From Yonghaparkia sp. Root332 (GTDB lineage: Bacteria; Actinomycetota; Actinomycetes; Actinomycetales; Microbacteriaceae), in the NCBI RefSeq assembly GCF_001425665.1, contig NZ_LMCX01000002.1, forward strand, positions 124,001 to 188,000: DNA of 64,000 nucleotides, written 5' to 3'. Shown piece after piece: positions 41,224 to 48,999 of the stretch. Below the pieces are notes generated by a model that was not told the origin of the DNA, did not search any database, and was given only the letters and a program-made list of their open reading frames with translations. Numbering within the stretch: the stretch's first letter is position 1; every line of letters begins with the position of its first letter. Made by a program: the position numbers and the translations under genes.

Positions 41224-43579
41224 GGCGGAGAGCCAGGGCACCCGCCGGGTCGCGGGGCGCGGCGCGCGCGCGGGGCGCGGCACCGTGCTCGTGCCGCTCG
41301 CGGCGCTGCTCATGCTCGCCGCGGCGCTCTCGGCCTTCACCGTCCTGCTCGACGAGGGCCCGTGGTTCGCCTCCACGATGGTCGTCGTCGCGGTCGTGGT
41401 CGGTGCGGGTGCGCTGGCGCGCCTGCGTGCGCGGAGATGGCGACCCGCGTGGTCGGTGCTCGCGTCGAGCGCGGCGCTCGTGGTCATCCTCACCGCGGTG
41501 TTCGCGGCCGAGGTCTCGTTCGCCGTCGTCGTCCCGACCGCCGACACGCTCGAGAGGTTCAGCGAGCTCGTCGCCGCGGGGGAGCAGTCGATCGCCGAGC
41601 AGTCGCTGCCGGCGGAGGCCGACCCGGGCATCCGGTTCCTGCTCGCGCTCGGGGTCGGGGGGATCGCGATCGTGACCGACGCCCTCGCCTCTCTCAGCCG
41701 GCGGCCGGCGCTCGCCGTCGTGCCCGCCCTGGGCATCCTCGCCGTACCGGTCGTGCTCGCCCCGGGCGCGCTGCCGCTCCCGACCGTGGTCGCGACGGCC
41801 GCCGCATACCTGCTCATGCTCGCGCTGCACCGCCCGGCCGCGATCGGCGGCGGAGCGGGCGTCGCGCGGGCCGTCACGGCCGCGGCCGTCGTGCTCGTCG
41901 CCGCCGTGGTCGTTCCGCCCGCGTTGCCGTCGGTGCTCGCCGGCGACCGGTTGCCCGGCTCGGGGCCGGCGGGGCTCGTGACCGGCATCAACCCGGTCGT
42001 CGAGCTCGGCGACGACCTGAGACGGCAGAACCCGGTGACGGTGCTGACCTACTCGACGGGTCTCGAGGGCGGGCAGTACCTGACGCTCTCGCATCTGGCC
42101 GAGTTCGCCGGGCAGGAGGTGCTGCCCGTACCGTTCGAGGCGGAGACGCGCGAGGCGGGCGAGATCGGCCCGCCCGCGTGGTTCGCGGACGACGTCGCGT
42201 TCACGAGCGTGGAGACGACGATCACGCTGCGCAGCGTCCGCTCGCGCTGGGTGCCCCTGCCGTCGGCGCCGGTGCGGGCCGACGGGCTCACCGGCGGCTG
42301 GGTCATCGACCCCGACGGCGTGACGATGCGCACCGCCGAGGGGTCCATCCGCAACGGCACGTACACGGTCGAGAACCGCCTCGCGCGCCCGACTCCCGAG
42401 CAGCTGCGCGCGACGACCGTCGACGCGCCCGGACTCGACCAGTACCGCGCCCTGCCCGAGGACATCGACCCGATCATCGAGGCGACCGCGCGCGAGGTCG
42501 TGGCGGGCATCGACAACCCCTACGAGCAGGCGGTCGCGCTGCAGCGGTTCTTCACCGACGGCGGCTTCACCTACTCGGAGGACGCCCCCGTCGAGGGCGG
42601 CTTCGACGGCTCGGGCGCCGAGATCGTCGCGGCGTTCCTGGAGGCGCGCTCCGGGTACTGCGTGCACTTCGGCTCGGCGATGACGCTCATGGCGCGCACG
42701 CTGGGAATCCCGACGCGCATGGCGGTGGGGTTCCTGCCGGGGTCGCGGAACCCGGTGATCCCGAGCGAGTACACCGTGTCGTCGGACGACCTGCACACCT
42801 GGCCCGAGCTGCACTTCGACGGCATCGGCTGGGTGCGCTTCGAGCCGACCCCCTCGCGCGGCGTGACCCCCGACTACGCGACCGAGGAGGCCCTCACCCC
42901 GAGCGGATCACCCTCGCCCGACCCGCTCACGCCCGAGCCGATCGAGCCCACGGCGACCGCGACGCCGGGTGCGCCGTCGCCGGGTGCGTCCGGCGGCCCC
43001 GACCTCCCCGACGAGCAGATCGACGCGGGCGGCACCGCTTCCGGCGGCCTGCTCGGGGGGCGGTCGACGATCGGGGGCGTGGATGCCCGGCTCGTGCTCG
43101 CCCTCGCGCTCATGCTCGTCCTCGCGCTGCTCGCCGCGCCCGGGGTCTGGCGGGCCGTGCTGCGCGCGCGCCGACTGCGCTCGCCGGATCCGCTCGACGC
43201 CTGGCGCGAGCTGCGCGACACGGCCCGCGACCTGGGGCTGCCCGCGGAGGCGACCCGCACGCCGCGCGAGCTCGCCCGCGCGTGGGCGGGGGTGGGGGCT
43301 GGCGGCGGTGCCAGGGCCGGGGCGGGTGCCGCTGGTGGCGTCGCGGAGCCGTCGGCCGAGGGGCTCGAGGTCTTCGAGGCCGTGCGCCGCGCCCTCGAGG
43401 CGCGCGCCTACGGAGCGCCGGCCGCGGTGTCGGGCGCCCCGGACATCCGCCCCGCACTGCGCGCCCTGCGCGCGCGCACGCCGTGGTGGCGTCAGCTGCT
43501 CGCCGCGGTCGGGCCGCGCTCGCTCGCGTCGCGCGAGCCGCGCGACCCGGCCCTCGAGCTGCCCGCAGCCCCCGCCTGA
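41216..43579 (+). CDS. Transglutaminase-like (TgpA-type) membrane protein, triad intact
   Basis: 787 aa, the same length as the first copy. Six to eight N-terminal membrane helices, an extracytoplasmic transglutaminase domain with Cys482 (SGYCVHFGSAM), His527 (DDLHTW) and Glu543 (FEPTP), a Pro-rich linker, one membrane segment near residue 630 and a C-terminal cytoplasmic region with DAWRELRDTARDLGLP. Probably an active peptidase or transglutaminase facing outward. The Ala/Gly-rich tract near residues 690-720 looks like a flexible spacer. Confidence 0.93.
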   Translation: MAEAESQGTRRVAGRGARAGRGTVLVPLAALLMLAAALSAFTVLLDEGPWFASTMVVVAVVVGAGALARLRARRWRPAWSVLASSAALVVILTAVFAAEVSFAVVVPTADTLERFSELVAAGEQSIAEQSLPAEADPGIRFLLALGVGGIAIVTDALASLSRRPALAVVPALGILAVPVVLAPGALPLPTVVATAAAYLLMLALHRPAAIGGGAGVARAVTAAAVVLVAAVVVPPALPSVLAGDRLPGSGPAGLVTGINPVVELGDDLRRQNPVTVLTYSTGLEGGQYLTLSHLAEFAGQEVLPVPFEAETREAGEIGPPAWFADDVAFTSVETTITLRSVRSRWVPLPSAPVRADGLTGGWVIDPDGVTMRTAEGSIRNGTYTVENRLARPTPEQLRATTVDAPGLDQYRALPEDIDPIIEATAREVVAGIDNPYEQAVALQRFFTDGGFTYSEDAPVEGGFDGSGAEIVAAFLEARSGYCVHFGSAMTLMARTLGIPTRMAVGFLPGSRNPVIPSEYTVSSDDLHTWPELHFDGIGWVRFEPTPSRGVTPDYATEEALTPSGSPSPDPLTPEPIEPTATATPGAPSPGASGGPDLPDEQIDAGGTASGGLLGGRSTIGGVDARLVLALALMLVLALLAAPGVWRAVLRARRLRSPDPLDAWRELRDTARDLGLPAEATRTPRELARAWAGVGAGGGARAGAGAAGGVAEPSAEGLEVFEAVRRALEARAYGAPAAVSGAPDIRPALRALRARTPWWRQLLAAVGPRSLASREPRDPALELPAAPA

Positions 43580-43636
43580 CGTCGGCCTCCGTCGCTGCCT
43601 GCCGCGCCGCGCCGCCGGCCGCGTAGTCCGGCTGCT

Positions 43637-43725
43637 CATGCGCAACTCAGGATCGTTCGACGATCATCCGTGCGGCGCCGCGGGTCGGAACCCTCCTCAG
43701 CCGCACCGTTCCTGAGTTGCGCATG
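43637..43725. repeat. Palindromic element A (89 bp)
   Basis: Perfect 16-bp terminal inverted repeats: CATGCGCAACTCAGGA at 43637-43652 and TCCTGAGTTGCGCATG at 43710-43725. The interior contains a second arm pair, CGTGCGGC and GCCGCAC, giving a nested cruciform or hairpin. It ends 12 bp from the stop of the DUF559 gene. The same tips occur in element B on the other side of that gene. Confidence 0.92.
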
Positions 43726-43737
43726 GTGGGTCTCGCA

Positions 43738-44586
43738 TCAACGGTGGTCACCGCGCTGGAGAGCGGCGAGGACCGCCGCTTCGACAATCGACCAGTGCTC
43801 CATCACCTGCCGATAGCTGAACCGCAGCACCCGGAATCCTCGTCGCGAGAGCTCAGCATCTCGTCGACGGTCGTTCTCGAAGGTGCTCTCCGTGTCATGG
43901 AACGACTCGCCGTCGATCTCGACGACCAGCCGTTCCGCGATCAGGAAGTCGACGGAGCCCACGCCGGGAATCCGCACCTGCGGTCGGAGCGACGGGAGGC
44001 GGCCGTGCATGCGCAGTCGGAAGAGGGTCTCCGTGCCCGACTCGCAGGTCCCGTCGACGAGGCCGGGCACGATGCGGTGGCCGCCGGCGACCAGGTCCTG
44101 CCTGAGGCCCGGCGATCGGTGGAGCACCGACTCGAGCGATGCGAGGTACAGCTCGCGCGGCGCGCAGGAGCGAAGTGTCGCGATGGCATCGACCGGATCG
44201 GCGACGAGCCGATTGCGGGGCGCCCGGGGAGGCATCCAGTGCACGCGGAGCCCGGGAGTTCCTGGCTCGTAGGCGCGTCGTGCATCACCCGCCGACCGCA
44301 GTCGCGCGGCGTTCCTCGGAACGAGAACATGCAGACTGCCGTCGGGGACGGCCCAGTATCCGTGAGCCCGAAGCGACTGCGCGCACGTGATCGTTCCCCC
44401 CACTCGTGCCGCTCGAACCGCGTCGGCAGCGATGTCGGGCGCCGAGAACCATCCCCGCCTCACGCGTACCAGTGCGCGGCGGCTGACGAGTCCCGCCAGC
44501 CGCCCTCGCGTGACGCCGATCGTCTCGAGCTCGGATGTCGAGATGAGCCCGCCGAAGTGACGGACGGCGTGATGAATGTCGACCAT
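43738..44586 (-). CDS. AbiEi-type wing plus DUF559 endonuclease-like protein
   Basis: 282 aa from the ATG at 44586; longer versions of the frame read through element B and are unlikely. The N-terminal 60 residues resemble a winged helix (HHAVRHFGGLISTSELETIG, then RGRLAGLVSRRALVRVRRGW) as in AbiEi-type antitoxins. The C-terminal 90 residues are DUF559, a Vsr/PD-(D/E)XK-like nuclease fold: VDFLIAERLVVEIDGESFHD, then RRRDAELSRRGFRVLRFSYRQV. The Asp and Glu-x-Asp residues suggest an active nuclease. No AbiEii partner is present. It is flanked by palindromic elements A and B. Confidence 0.85.
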   Translation of the reverse strand: MVDIHHAVRHFGGLISTSELETIGVTRGRLAGLVSRRALVRVRRGWFSAPDIAADAVRAARVGGTITCAQSLRAHGYWAVPDGSLHVLVPRNAARLRSAGDARRAYEPGTPGLRVHWMPPRAPRNRLVADPVDAIATLRSCAPRELYLASLESVLHRSPGLRQDLVAGGHRIVPGLVDGTCESGTETLFRLRMHGRLPSLRPQVRIPGVGSVDFLIAERLVVEIDGESFHDTESTFENDRRRDAELSRRGFRVLRFSYRQVMEHWSIVEAAVLAALQRGDHR

Positions 44587-44679
44587 GGCGGACAGAGTGC
44601 CGCGCCGCATCCGCTCGCCCAGCCGGAGGGGCGCTGGCGGGGGCACGAGGCGAAAGGGGTGCGGTTGGGGAGGAGGGGA

Positions 44680-44764
44680 TGCGCAACTCAGGAAGTACGA
44701 TCGCGCTGGCGCGTGATGGTGCGGCTGGTCGCTGCCCGCACGGCTTCGGTTCCTGAGTTGCGCA
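44680..44764. repeat. Palindromic element B (85 bp)
   Basis: Perfect 15-bp terminal inverted repeats TGCGCAACTCAGGAA (44680-44694) and TTCCTGAGTTGCGCA (44750-44764), the same tips as element A. The interior differs but keeps a GTGCGG / CCGCAC arm pair. It lies about 94 bp upstream of the DUF559 start. Confidence 0.92.
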
Positions 44765-44851
44765 CGGGCGTGGTGGCGCGCCTGCTCCGGGGCGAGACGC
44801 ATCGGGGAGCGGCGCCCGGCGCGCGGCCTCGCGGTGCCGAGCGCGCGGCCC

Positions 44852-44905
44852 GGGCCCGCGGCGCCCAGGCCCGCGGCGCCCAGCGCGCCCGGGCCCGCGG
44901 CGCCC
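44852..44905. repeat. 15-bp GC repeat, three copies
   Basis: Three copies of GGGCCCGCGGCGCCC or AGGCCCGCGGCGCCC at 44852, 44867 and 44891, within the 342-bp gene-free gap between the DUF559 and ybaK genes. The rest of that gap holds element B and GC-rich sequence in which I see no gene. Confidence 0.75.
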
Positions 44906-44928
44906 GGCGCGCGGTGCGGCCCGCACGC

Positions 44929-45423
44929 CTACCGCGCGATATCGCCCAGCACCCCGCCGGTCGCGCGCAGCAGGTCGGCGGGCGCGAGCTCGAGGTCGAA
45001 CCCGCGCCGGCCGCCCGACACGAGCACGGTCTCCCACAGCAGGGCGGACTCGTCGACGACGGTCGGCAGCGCTGTCTTCTGCCCGATGGGCGAGATGCCG
45101 CCGACGACGTATCCGGTCTTGCGCTCGGCGAGCTCGGGCGCGGCCATCGCCGCGCGCTTCGCCCCGACGGCCGCCGCGAGCGCCTTGAGGTCGAGCAGCG
45201 ACGAGACCGGCACCACCCCGACCACGAGTCGTCCATCCGCTTCGGCGAGCAGCGTCTTGAACACGCGCTCCGGCTCGACGCCGAGCGCGGCCGCCGCCTC
45301 CAGCCCGTAGGCGGTGACCGCCGCGTCGTGCGCGTACGCCCGCGGCGTGAACGGGATTCCCGCGGCCGTCAGCGCGACCGTCGCCGGAGTCCCCGGCGCG
45401 GCCTGCGATCGCGGCCTACCCAT
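44929..45423 (-). CDS. ybaK: YbaK/EbsC family Cys-tRNA(Pro) deacylase
   Basis: 164 aa. Removes cysteine mischarged onto tRNA-Pro. FKTLLAEADGRLVVGVVPVS, VGAKRAAMAAP and the GGISPIGQKTALPTVVDESAL signature with its conserved Lys are present. The start overlaps the end of glgX by 8 bp, so it is co-transcribed behind it. Confidence 0.92.
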   Translation of the reverse strand: MGRPRSQAAPGTPATVALTAAGIPFTPRAYAHDAAVTAYGLEAAAALGVEPERVFKTLLAEADGRLVVGVVPVSSLLDLKALAAAVGAKRAAMAAPELAERKTGYVVGGISPIGQKTALPTVVDESALLWETVLVSGGRRGFDLELAPADLLRATGGVLGDIAR

Positions 45424-47651: not shown

Positions 47652-48962
47652 GTGGTCGTCTATCTCGATCACGCCGCCGGTTCCCCCATGCCGGCCTCCA
47701 TCCGCGGCGCGTACCTGGCGGCGCTCGAGCACGTGGGCAACCCGTCGTCGATCCACTCGGCGGGGCAGGCGGCGCGCGGCATGCTCGAGGGCGCGCGCGA
47801 GCGCATCGCCGCGACCCTCGGCGTCGACGCGGTGGAGGTCGTGCTCACGGGCGGCGGCACCGAGGCCGTGAACCTCGGGGTGAAGGGACTGTTCTGGCAG
47901 CGGCAGGCAGGGGCGGCCGGCGACCGGGCCGTGGCGCCGGACGCCGCGCCCGACGCCGCGCCCGCACGCGCCGACCGGCCGCGCCCGCGCATCCTCATGC
48001 CGCGCGCCGAGCACCACGCGACCCTCGACGCCGTCGAATGGCTCGCCGCGCACGAGGGCGCGCAGCTGCGCTGGCTCGAGGTCGACGAGGTCGGGGCGCT
48101 GCGGCTCGACGACTTCGAGGCCGCCCTGGCCGAAGGCGCTGGCCCAGTCGATGTCGCCCTCCTCACGATGCTCGCCGCCAACAACGAGGTCGGCACGCTG
48201 CAGCCCGTCGCCGAGGCCGCGGCGCTCGCCGCCGCCCACGGCGTGCCCGTGCACGTCGACGCGATCGCCGCCTACGGGCAGGTCCCGCTCGCACCCCTTC
48301 CCGCCGGAGTCTCGGCCGTCTCGCTCTCGGCCCACAAGCTCGGCGGCCCCGTCGGCGTCGGAGCCCTCGTGCTGCGCCGCGGCGCCGACGTCGTTCCGCT
48401 GCTGCACGGCGGCTCGCAGCAGCGCGGGCGCTCCGGCACGATGGATGCCGCGGGAGCGGCCGCCTTCGCCGCCGCCTCCGACGAGGCCCACGCCGCGATC
48501 GCGGAGCGCGCCGCACGCAAGGCGCAGCTGCGCGACCGCCTGGCGGCGGGCATCCTCGCCGCTCTGCCGCAGGTCGAGCTGCGCGGCGCCGCGGGCCGCG
48601 CGGCCGCCGCGCGCGCGGCCGGCCGCGTCGCCGAGGCCGACGCGTGGGCCGCGCGCGCCCTGCCCGGCACGCTGCACCTGACCGTTCCGGGGGCCGAGGG
48701 CGACTCGCTGCTCATGCTGCTCGATCTCGCGGGCTTCGCCGTCTCGACGGGCTCGGCGTGCCAGGCCGGGGTTCCCGAGCCGAGCCACGTGCTGCTCGCG
48801 ATGGGCCTTCACGAGCAGGCGGCGCGCGGTGCCCTGCGCGTCTCGCTCGGCCCCGAGACGACCGAGGCCGACGTCGATGCGCTGCTCGCGGCGCTGCCCG
48901 ACGCCGTCGCCCGCGCGACGTCGGCGGGTCTCGCGGCCCGCACCCCGACCCTCGGCCGCTAG
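47652..48962 (+). CDS. Cysteine desulfurase
   Basis: 436 aa from the GTG that gives the family start VVYLDHAAGSPM. A PLP enzyme that passes sulfur from cysteine to a protein persulfide. PLP-binding Lys229 (SLSAHKLGGP), His in PRAEHHATL and the catalytic Cys370 (GSACQAG) are present. About 25 residues of Ala/Asp/Pro-rich insert (near 85-112) interrupt an early surface loop. It is 37 bp upstream of mnmA, which needs such a sulfur donor. Confidence 0.93.
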   Translation: MVVYLDHAAGSPMPASIRGAYLAALEHVGNPSSIHSAGQAARGMLEGARERIAATLGVDAVEVVLTGGGTEAVNLGVKGLFWQRQAGAAGDRAVAPDAAPDAAPARADRPRPRILMPRAEHHATLDAVEWLAAHEGAQLRWLEVDEVGALRLDDFEAALAEGAGPVDVALLTMLAANNEVGTLQPVAEAAALAAAHGVPVHVDAIAAYGQVPLAPLPAGVSAVSLSAHKLGGPVGVGALVLRRGADVVPLLHGGSQQRGRSGTMDAAGAAAFAAASDEAHAAIAERAARKAQLRDRLAAGILAALPQVELRGAAGRAAAARAAGRVAEADAWAARALPGTLHLTVPGAEGDSLLMLLDLAGFAVSTGSACQAGVPEPSHVLLAMGLHEQAARGALRVSLGPETTEADVDALLAALPDAVARATSAGLAARTPTLGR

Positions 48963-48999
48963 CGGCTCGACGCCCGACGCAGCCGCGTACCCTTGACGG

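Follow-up and report, generated by a model that had tools for sequence, protein, structure and literature searches.

How does a single nuclease-like gene come to stand between two palindromic elements with the same tips, and do gene and elements belong together? The question arises in the window, by which we mean the whole stretch of 64,000 nucleotides analysed here, from a host genome of the genus Microcella (2.63 Mb in 2 contigs). A sequence-only reading had placed two such elements around a DUF559 gene, one tip lying 12 bp from the stop, and had likened them to REP sequences and their RAYT proteins. Both elements were confirmed where they had been placed, with four exact 14-mers as their tips, and 12 bp do separate element 1 from the stop of the gene, here called dufA, at 43738. 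The observation is real and extends further than was reported. Its parts in the window are the following:

43637–43725, no strand: element 1, the 3' bracket, an inverted pair of TGCGCAACTCAGGA(A) with a non-conserved interior of 57 bp between the 14-mers
43639–43652, plus strand: left half-site (14-mer) of element 1
43710–43723, minus strand: right half-site (14-mer) of element 1
43738–44586, minus strand: dufA, with a predicted AbiEi-like DNA-binding region and a predicted DUF559 (EDxHD/Vsr-like) nuclease, 282 aa from the ATG at 44586
44680–44764, no strand: element 2, the 5' bracket upstream of the dufA start, an inverted pair with the half-site of element 1 and an unrelated interior
44680–44693, plus strand: left half-site (14-mer) of element 2
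44751–44764, minus strand: right half-site (14-mer) of element 2

A single half-site, TGCGCAACTCAGGAA, forms the ends of both elements, in each as an inverted pair. Element 1 measures 85 bp from tip to tip (43639–43723), or 89 bp (43637–43725) when two paired bases are added on each side, and element 2 measures 85 bp (44680–44764). All four occurrences of the 14-mer TGCGCAACTCAGGA in the 64-kb window are exact, where 0.41 ± 0.64 were expected at up to two mismatches and four were reached in 0 of 100 shuffles. Nor is the motif unique to these two sites: the genome-wide search that had been proposed returned 22 exact copies of TGCGCAACTCAGGA and 14 inverted pairs of the window half-site, and at up to two mismatches the 14-mer matched 36 places, against 7 for the reversed control. 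Across the 14 pairs, positions 1–14 of the half-site agree in 25 to 28 of the 28 half-sites and position 15 in 23. The distances from start to start are 70, 71 (nine pairs), 72, 82 (two pairs) and 92 bp. A conserved mobile interior for this family was rejected, since the interiors score like shuffles (mean 16.3 vs 15.7); the highest of 91 comparisons scored 27.0, the shuffled 99th percentile being 24.8. The nested GTGCGG/CCGCAC arms that had also been described are present in both window elements and missing from the remaining 12 pairs with the TGCGCAACTCAGGA half-site, so that they were discarded as a general feature (2 of 14 pairs). The sequence-only reading had further expected copies to gather near DUF559 genes and to be missing from genomes without one. 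The outcome was mixed: 12 of the 14 host pairs lie away from dufA, and the searched spellings were absent from genomes without the cognate gene; exact pairs of the host's own spelling numbered 9 in the host and 0 in 39 other genomes.

The gene starts at the ATG at 44586 or at an upstream ATG at 44610, and its neighbours in the window are, by their Pfam matches, a TgpA/transglutaminase and a tRNA-editing (YbaK-like) gene. Its product matches Pfam DUF559 at E 2.7e-9, with a sub-threshold match to MTES_1575, and in a 354-aa frame the best PADLOC AbiEi model covers residues 76–167 (E 1.8e-6) and a PADLOC homing-endonuclease model residues 283–328 (E 3.9e-4). The predicted structure (mean pLDDT 93.9) aligned with the AbiEi antitoxin PDB 6y8q over 194 columns (E 4.7e-6; the fold search gives no residue ranges). 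Weaker alignments were with I-Bth0305I, an EDxHD homing endonuclease, in its catalytic domain (3r3p, E 1.4e-3, 93 columns), and with NGO0050 (3hrl, E 5.2e-3, 102 columns). Across 23 aligned relatives D213, D225, G226 and H230 do not vary and E223 hardly does (282-aa numbering), and the nuclease domain therefore looks kept rather than decayed. By its model the protein has an AbiEi-like antitoxin fold, and predicted fold and conserved residues together assign its nuclease domain to the EDxHD type. No HuH transposase appeared among the Pfam, NCBIfam, PADLOC or leading PDB fold matches of the product. Relatives of the window protein outside chromosomes are rare: at E 1e-5 matches to it were present in 4 plasmid records among 72,556 and in 1 phage record among 50,697.

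Within the window's family, 81 of 120 sampled genomes contain DUF559 genes. Named genomes (Microcella, Salinibacterium, Microbacterium, Cryobacterium, Arthrobacter, Sinomonas, Gordonia and others) were scanned and yielded 50 loci, some of them closely related and with a common half-site, such as those of Arthrobacter. At 31 of the 50 the same inverted pair stands on both sides of the gene with a score of at least 50 of 56, a score reached by 0 of 41, 0 of 47 and 0 of 43 same-locus controls (0 of 131 in total); the remaining 19 fall below it. When equal spacing was required together with a score of at least 48, 35 of the 50 loci qualified and 15 failed, against 0 of 131 controls. Where a score of 50 was reached, the 5' pair ends 42–152 bp upstream of the estimated gene start, the 3' pair begins 8–160 bp past the matched region, and the bracket sequence differs from lineage to lineage. 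In a smaller set, made up of 29 loci taken from the listed matches of the family search and four host loci (one locus partial), 17 of 33 DUF559 loci, the window gene included, exceeded the 99th percentile of swapped-flank controls. One swapped-flank control was contaminated (37 of 1000 at 50 or more) because relatives have half-sites in common, and the same-locus controls were used in its stead. In both sets, genes of this kind are thus found flanked by palindromic elements of their own.

Dispersed copies follow the same rule. The half-site CCAAATGAAGG, read from the brackets of the genes in G114 and G077 and of the L033 gene of the host, was searched in 20 genomes. With the brackets counted, pairs numbered 11 in G114, 11 in G077 and 4 in the host (9, 10 and 3 outside the brackets themselves), and 0 in the 17 others, which were picked by hand among DUF559-matching genomes and in which half-sites were read for some of the DUF559 genes. 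For three spellings dispersed copies were found only together with the cognate gene. A half-site CCAAATCAAGGCTG at L175 (JABBOD010000002.1, titled as an Acidobacteria MAG) occurs also in G106 of the window's family, and the title is probably misassigned. The host genome itself has four PF04480 matches, and its three loci L032, L033 and L034 did not pass the automated bracket test. By eye, each shows an inverted pair in a sequence different from that of the window: L032 has pairs, 61 bp apart, on both sides of its DUF559 gene; at L033 one flank carries a full pair and the opposite flank a lone copy; and at L034 a pair on one flank is answered across the gene by a half-site with one mismatch. 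The open frame at L033:1480–2223 (host C1:905820) encodes DUF559 without the usual N-terminal DNA-binding part; a half-site sits at its 5' end, and its element family keeps 4 exact pairs genome-wide.

A second system of the same design was met at another locus. The relaxed pattern CAACTCAGGA-N50..80-TCCTGAGTTG was searched in 26 genus and 299 family genomes and gave pairs in 14 of the former and 15 of the latter (7 of 85 genera), and its reversed form gave none in either set. Most of the listed pairs lie clustered within about 45–80 kb in 8 of these 14 genus genomes, and the host cluster surrounds a second dufA-type gene between glyS and a dsbA-like gene (by Pfam, a class II tRNA synthetase and DSBA). 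This gene is 39% identical to the window protein, with identical conserved nuclease residues; it was missed by PF04480 and receives from Pfam only a sub-threshold AbiEi_4 match. Around it, over about 75 kb, CGTCAACAACTCAGGACTAACG-type half-sites form pairs and arrays in the order (+..+)(-..-), some within coding sequence, as mapped in two genomes:

Host, C2:532681–604614 (L071–L074): CGTCAACAACTCAGGACTAACG-type array region
G014, C1:1642219–1719040 (L075–L079): CGTCAACAACTCAGGACTAACG-type array region

The locus was compared at up to one mismatch in 20 of the 26 genus genomes, six fragmented assemblies being left out. All 18 genomes with the gene carry the 5' pair and 15 of them a full 3' pair; in G002 the second 3' half-site has two mismatches, and G009 and G018 have no 3' pair. 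G008 and G006 lack the gene block between glyS and dsbA, and at up to one mismatch no half-site was present in 20 and 19 kb of the two, respectively; no target duplication was recognised by eye when they were compared. Among genomes with the gene and with the segment covered, pairs return in the same places: the nadB end in 15 of 15, the csd end in 15 of 17, across recO-uppS in 13 of 18 and in the dsbA-ybaK gap in 13 of 14. In G009 about 6 kb of extra sequence (C1:1250446–1256817, L094), absent from the other 17 genomes with the gene, separates glyS from the nuclease gene's 5' pair. Outside the genus, CAACTCAGGA/CAATTCAGGA-type pairs stand on either side of a DUF559 relative at L068, whereas 11 of the 12 other-genus CAACTCAGGA-pair loci examined showed no dufA relative in the available stretch, so that for single CAACTCAGGA pairs in other genera the cognate gene is established for one only. 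Two pairs about 0.9 kb apart need not have a dufA-type gene between them: an example in G213 (C14) holds no such relative, and the general rule was given up. In another genus, G119 and G277 (L062, L063) have near-tandem units of about 22 bp with AACTCAGGAG/AATTCAGGAG, some of them inverted, unlike simple pairs.

The spelling of the sites varies between genomes and, by comparison, varies with the nuclease. Typical spellings in the glyS region are GTCAAC.. or GTCGAC..CAGGAC, GTCGACAACTCAGGAG, GTCGACAATTCAGGAG and CTCCACAATTCAGGAG, and some are mixed, as gradual change would predict. G024 is 95% identical to the host in glyS at the nucleotide level but only 51% in the nuclease; its nuclease is 71–72% identical to those of G016 and G010 (glyS 87–88%), and it carries the G016/G010 spelling. 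The reverse case is G021, whose nuclease is 71% identical to that of the host at a glyS identity of 84%, and 50–51% to those of G016 and G010 at 90%. Over the recO-glyS stretch, which holds four sites only, G024 differs from the host in 26% of site columns and 7% of others, and G023, with a host-type spelling, in 11% and 8%. In such discordant genomes site spelling is, by these sequence comparisons, seen to track the nuclease allele and not the species. In the window system the same intergenic gap can likewise hold a pair of different spelling (host C1:765968 and G024 C51:4336; host C1:392591 and G023 C5:7583), and host C1:488692 and G023 C5:108788 are close together at different spots. Bracketing that is specific to the gene, together with dispersed copies that change with the enzyme, argues for an undescribed enzyme-and-site system.

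Two ways in which sites arise may be read from the comparisons. The uppS peptide PPELRRE is encoded as CCC CCC GAG CTT CGG CGA GAG in G008 and by similar codons in G006, both without the glyS-locus gene. In G016, G012, G022 and G003 it is encoded as CCT CCT GAA TTG CGG AGA GAA, which is the half-site with the peptide unchanged, and G001 and G010 have one-codon variants of this. In G019, of another spelling, the protein itself is altered (CPELPTA for PPELRRE), and at csd the half-site is due to a substitution of equal length that alters residues. The silent uppS half-site and the csd substitution indicate that a site can be created where it stands; those that are silent point to selection on the DNA. 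Other genomes suggest copying. The 11 pairs of G077 have an interior identity of 0.59, against 0.30 when shuffled and 0.35 for the 60-bp outer flanks; the nine of G009 reach 0.60 (shuffled 0.34, flanks 0.39), by eye mostly in an inner hairpin; and the four of the L033 family reach 0.53 (shuffled 0.38, flanks 0.38). The likeness is weak in the eleven pairs of G114 (0.36, shuffled 0.30, flanks 0.32) and absent in the four of G023 (0.32 vs 0.32 shuffled). The simplest reading would be that whole elements of about 80 bp were copied, after which the interior drifted and the tips were kept. Interiors common to copies in some genomes thus suggest that elements also spread by copying, and the unlike interiors of the host's 14 and G023's four pairs mean that copying is not visible everywhere.

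The account that we favour, and think probable, is that the nuclease recognises a bipartite site of its own and that paired binding, copying and re-spelling give it a life like that of REPIN/RAYT systems, with an unrelated, homing-endonuclease-like enzyme. The site would consist of two inverted half-sites of about 15–20 bp, set some 6 to 9 helical turns apart around an interior of free sequence, with one pair closely preceding the gene, another closely following it, and more copies dispersed over the chromosome. The protein would bind the half-sites through its AbiEi-like part, and two units of it would span a pair, the DNA in between being looped or bent, as AbiEi biology, the phasing of the sites and the dimer target of about 60 bp of I-Bth0305I together suggest. 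The 5' pair would probably also repress the gene, and the nuclease part may act at paired sites and so spread or maintain the elements. In some lineages whole elements of about 80 bp appear, from their shared interiors, to have been copied, presumably with a part played by the nuclease, and the tips, as the comparisons show, are held and then re-spelled when the specificity of the protein changes, partly via point substitution in place. The account offers no route by which an EDxHD nuclease could copy an element of 80 bp.

A more modest possibility, which we regard as rather unlikely, is that the protein does nothing but bind. It would then be a repressor or a site-holding nuclease, and the pairs operators, decoys or a DNA antidote, created by point mutation in place and kept there by host or selfish selection, as an addiction in which loss of the sites would set the nuclease free, with nothing moving. 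The silent recoding of uppS PPELRRE in six genomes, beside native codons in two without the gene, would be expected of it, as would the csd site made by same-length substitution, the site positions common across species with altered spelling, and the ordered (+..+)(-..-) arrays with stepped spacings; AbiEi, moreover, autoregulates via inverted repeats (PMC7319586). What it accommodates poorly is the eleven elements of G077, which share interiors and not flanks and are most simply explained by whole-element copying, those of G009 behaving likewise, and a distribution of sites that varies by system, local in one and genome-wide in the other. A role as operators, one of the original suggestions, is in itself compatible with the data; it leaves the 3' pair and the scattered copies unexplained.

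The window locus in relatives bears on whether gene and brackets form a mobile unit. Nineteen genomes were compared, 18 fetched and the host, with eight of the 26 genus genomes left out; dufA is present in 6 and absent from 13. At one mismatch, at least one convergent pair stands beside ybaK in 5 of the 6 genomes with dufA, on both sides in 4, and G019 has none; looser pairs of TCCGAAATGCAGGA flank its gene on both sides (L174). The spellings here are TGCGCAACTCAGGA in the host, TGCACAAATGCAGGA in G009, GGCACGAATTCAGGC in G018, TTGCCAAATGCAGG in G023 and CCAAATGCAGTCTG in G024. Among the 26 genomes, CAAATGCAG pairs occur only in G009 (9), G023 (4) and G024 (2), all three of which have dufA bracketed by the CAAATGCAG spelling. 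The gene and its brackets are present or absent as one block, in keeping with the suggested mobile unit of about 1.1 kb, whereas the few plasmid and phage relatives speak against it. In G005, which lacks dufA, an inverted repeat GCTGAGTTGCCCCGTG lies near ybaK with its arms in the opposite order and 40–50 bp apart, and was not counted as a pair. The aligned window stretch holds no counterpart of the pairs at G023 C1:178901 and G009 C1:889330; at the former (L158, window 48962–48973) a pair-bearing segment of about 150 bp in G023 is absent from the window, between the same flanking genes. A clean empty site of 80 bp at C1:765968 was also considered and rejected, as the segment that the host and G024 have and G019 and G023 lack is about 100–150 bp long and exceeds the element.

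These comparisons also weigh on the thought that the gene is an excisable cassette. Cuts in mid-pair would free the gene unit, joining it into a cut solo pair would restore two full pairs, and solo pairs would be empty or vacated targets. The scheme accounts for two complete, equally spaced pairs around the gene and for their non-specific interiors, and I-Bth0305I binds its target of nearly 60 bp as a dimer (PMC3943268). Against it, a search of the 1.2 kb beside ybaK with all six spellings, allowing one mismatch, gave a solo convergent pair in 0 of the 13 genomes without dufA. Nor, in unsystematic reading, was a gene noticed inside a site that is solo elsewhere, and sites in coding sequence are not explained. 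We consider this cassette improbable.

That the pairs are transcription terminators, as had also been suggested, or RNA hairpins is disfavoured and must be called very improbable. The 12 pairs of the window spelling outside the window are all intergenic, as far as a crude codon-usage gene caller that missed or clipped nuclease genes allows, and in other systems a GC-rich hairpin lies inside some of the pairs; of those 12, however, 7 lie between tandem and 2 between divergent genes, with 3 between convergent ones. Positions 43500–44950 hold no T-tract terminator and no Rfam match up to E 1. Some sites of other systems are intragenic, spelling tracks the protein, and spacing is stepped: in the glyS regions 92 adjacent convergent distances (40–130 bp) fall at 66–67 (15), 77–80 (52), 88–91 (21) and 100 bp (4), and only 3 adjacent half-site pairs within 130 bp are in divergent order. 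Pooled statistics, which include many orthologous sites, give R of 0.81 at 10.0, 0.89 at 10.5, 0.93 at 11.0 and 0.88 at 12.0, so the period is not sharp; the 11 distances of G014 alone are all 66–67, 78 or 88 bp, a single-genome result partly driven by the dominant lengths. Steps of about one helical turn speak for a protein on double-stranded DNA rather than for hairpins of RNA or of single strands. The hairpin CGGCGTGTCG-N-CGACACGCCG, or the 9-mer CGACACGCC, recurs in 11 of 26 genus genomes (L223–L240); it lies within pairs of G009, G016, G012, G022, G001, G003, G024, G007 and the L033 family, and also within CAACTCAGGA pairs of another genus (G090, G213, G302). As a part of every element the CGGCGTGTCG...CGACACGCCG motif was rejected, being found within some element families only.

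Chance palindromes are refuted: high-GC genomes are rich in short inverted repeats and swapped-flank controls average 45 of 56, but the window, genome, own-spelling, bracket and CCAAATGAAGG controls are all far lower or zero.

Returning to the favoured account of a nuclease with its own bipartite site, a wider claim may be drawn from it, for which we see the case as evenly balanced. DUF559-AbiEi nucleases may be an unrecognised actinobacterial class of genome colonisers that lay, copy and re-spell phased sites, even in silent codons, with alleles and dialects evolving as a unit. No role for dufA-type DUF559 genes, and no DUF559/AbiEi-type gene with palindromic sites of its own, was found described in the literature searched, a body that excludes most subscription papers and bioRxiv preprints. 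Since the gene arrives with a readable target, its sequence context allows nuclease-site pairs to be predicted by the dozen, and these can then be tested together. If the account is true, it would provide a natural set of long-target DNA-binding proteins with specificities readable from their flanks, and a second, independent partnership of a nuclease with small palindromes, through which the drivers of such systems can be asked about.

Several known systems offer parts of this arrangement. In AbiE type IV toxin-antitoxin systems AbiEi matches the predicted dufA fold over 194 columns and autoregulates by binding inverted repeats (PMC7319586); dufA differs in having its own nuclease domain, in sites that reach far beyond a promoter, and in that no AbiEii nucleotidyltransferase toxin gene adjoins a dufA-type gene at the two loci examined (window and glyS-dsbA). 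The dufA nuclease belongs to the same superfamily as Vsr and the MTES_1575-type REase domains. Vsr is not known to be linked with palindromic sites of its own. The MTES_1575 protein is a large HEPN fusion (PMC3710099). With I-Bth0305I the likeness lies in the fold of the catalytic domain (3r3p) and in a long target to which a dimer binds (PMC3943268). Unlike homing endonucleases, dufA is not in an intron, intein or interrupted target: intact pairs flank the gene and occur elsewhere, and alleles without the gene show no such pair. The closest parallel is that drawn at the outset, with REPIN/RAYT systems, which holds well as an analogy (31 of 50 loci against 0 of 131 controls, and spelling that tracks the allele) and not for the protein. 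In both, a single-gene nuclease is flanked by its own palindromes, and the elements are inverted doublets with conserved tips and a variable spacer, scattered and co-evolving with the gene. The GI REPINs of P. fluorescens have 71 bp between first residues (PMC3116915), the figure of 9 of the 14 host pairs, which may be coincidence. The differences are that the dufA protein joins AbiEi to an EDxHD/Vsr-like domain and is no HuH/Y1 transposase, because of which membership of REPIN/RAYT fails, that lengths in dufA systems step by about 11 bp and some coding sites arise by substitution, and that copies are few, 2 to 14 pairs per system counted. If the account is true, the life-style of REPIN/RAYT systems would have been invented independently, with a homing-type enzyme.
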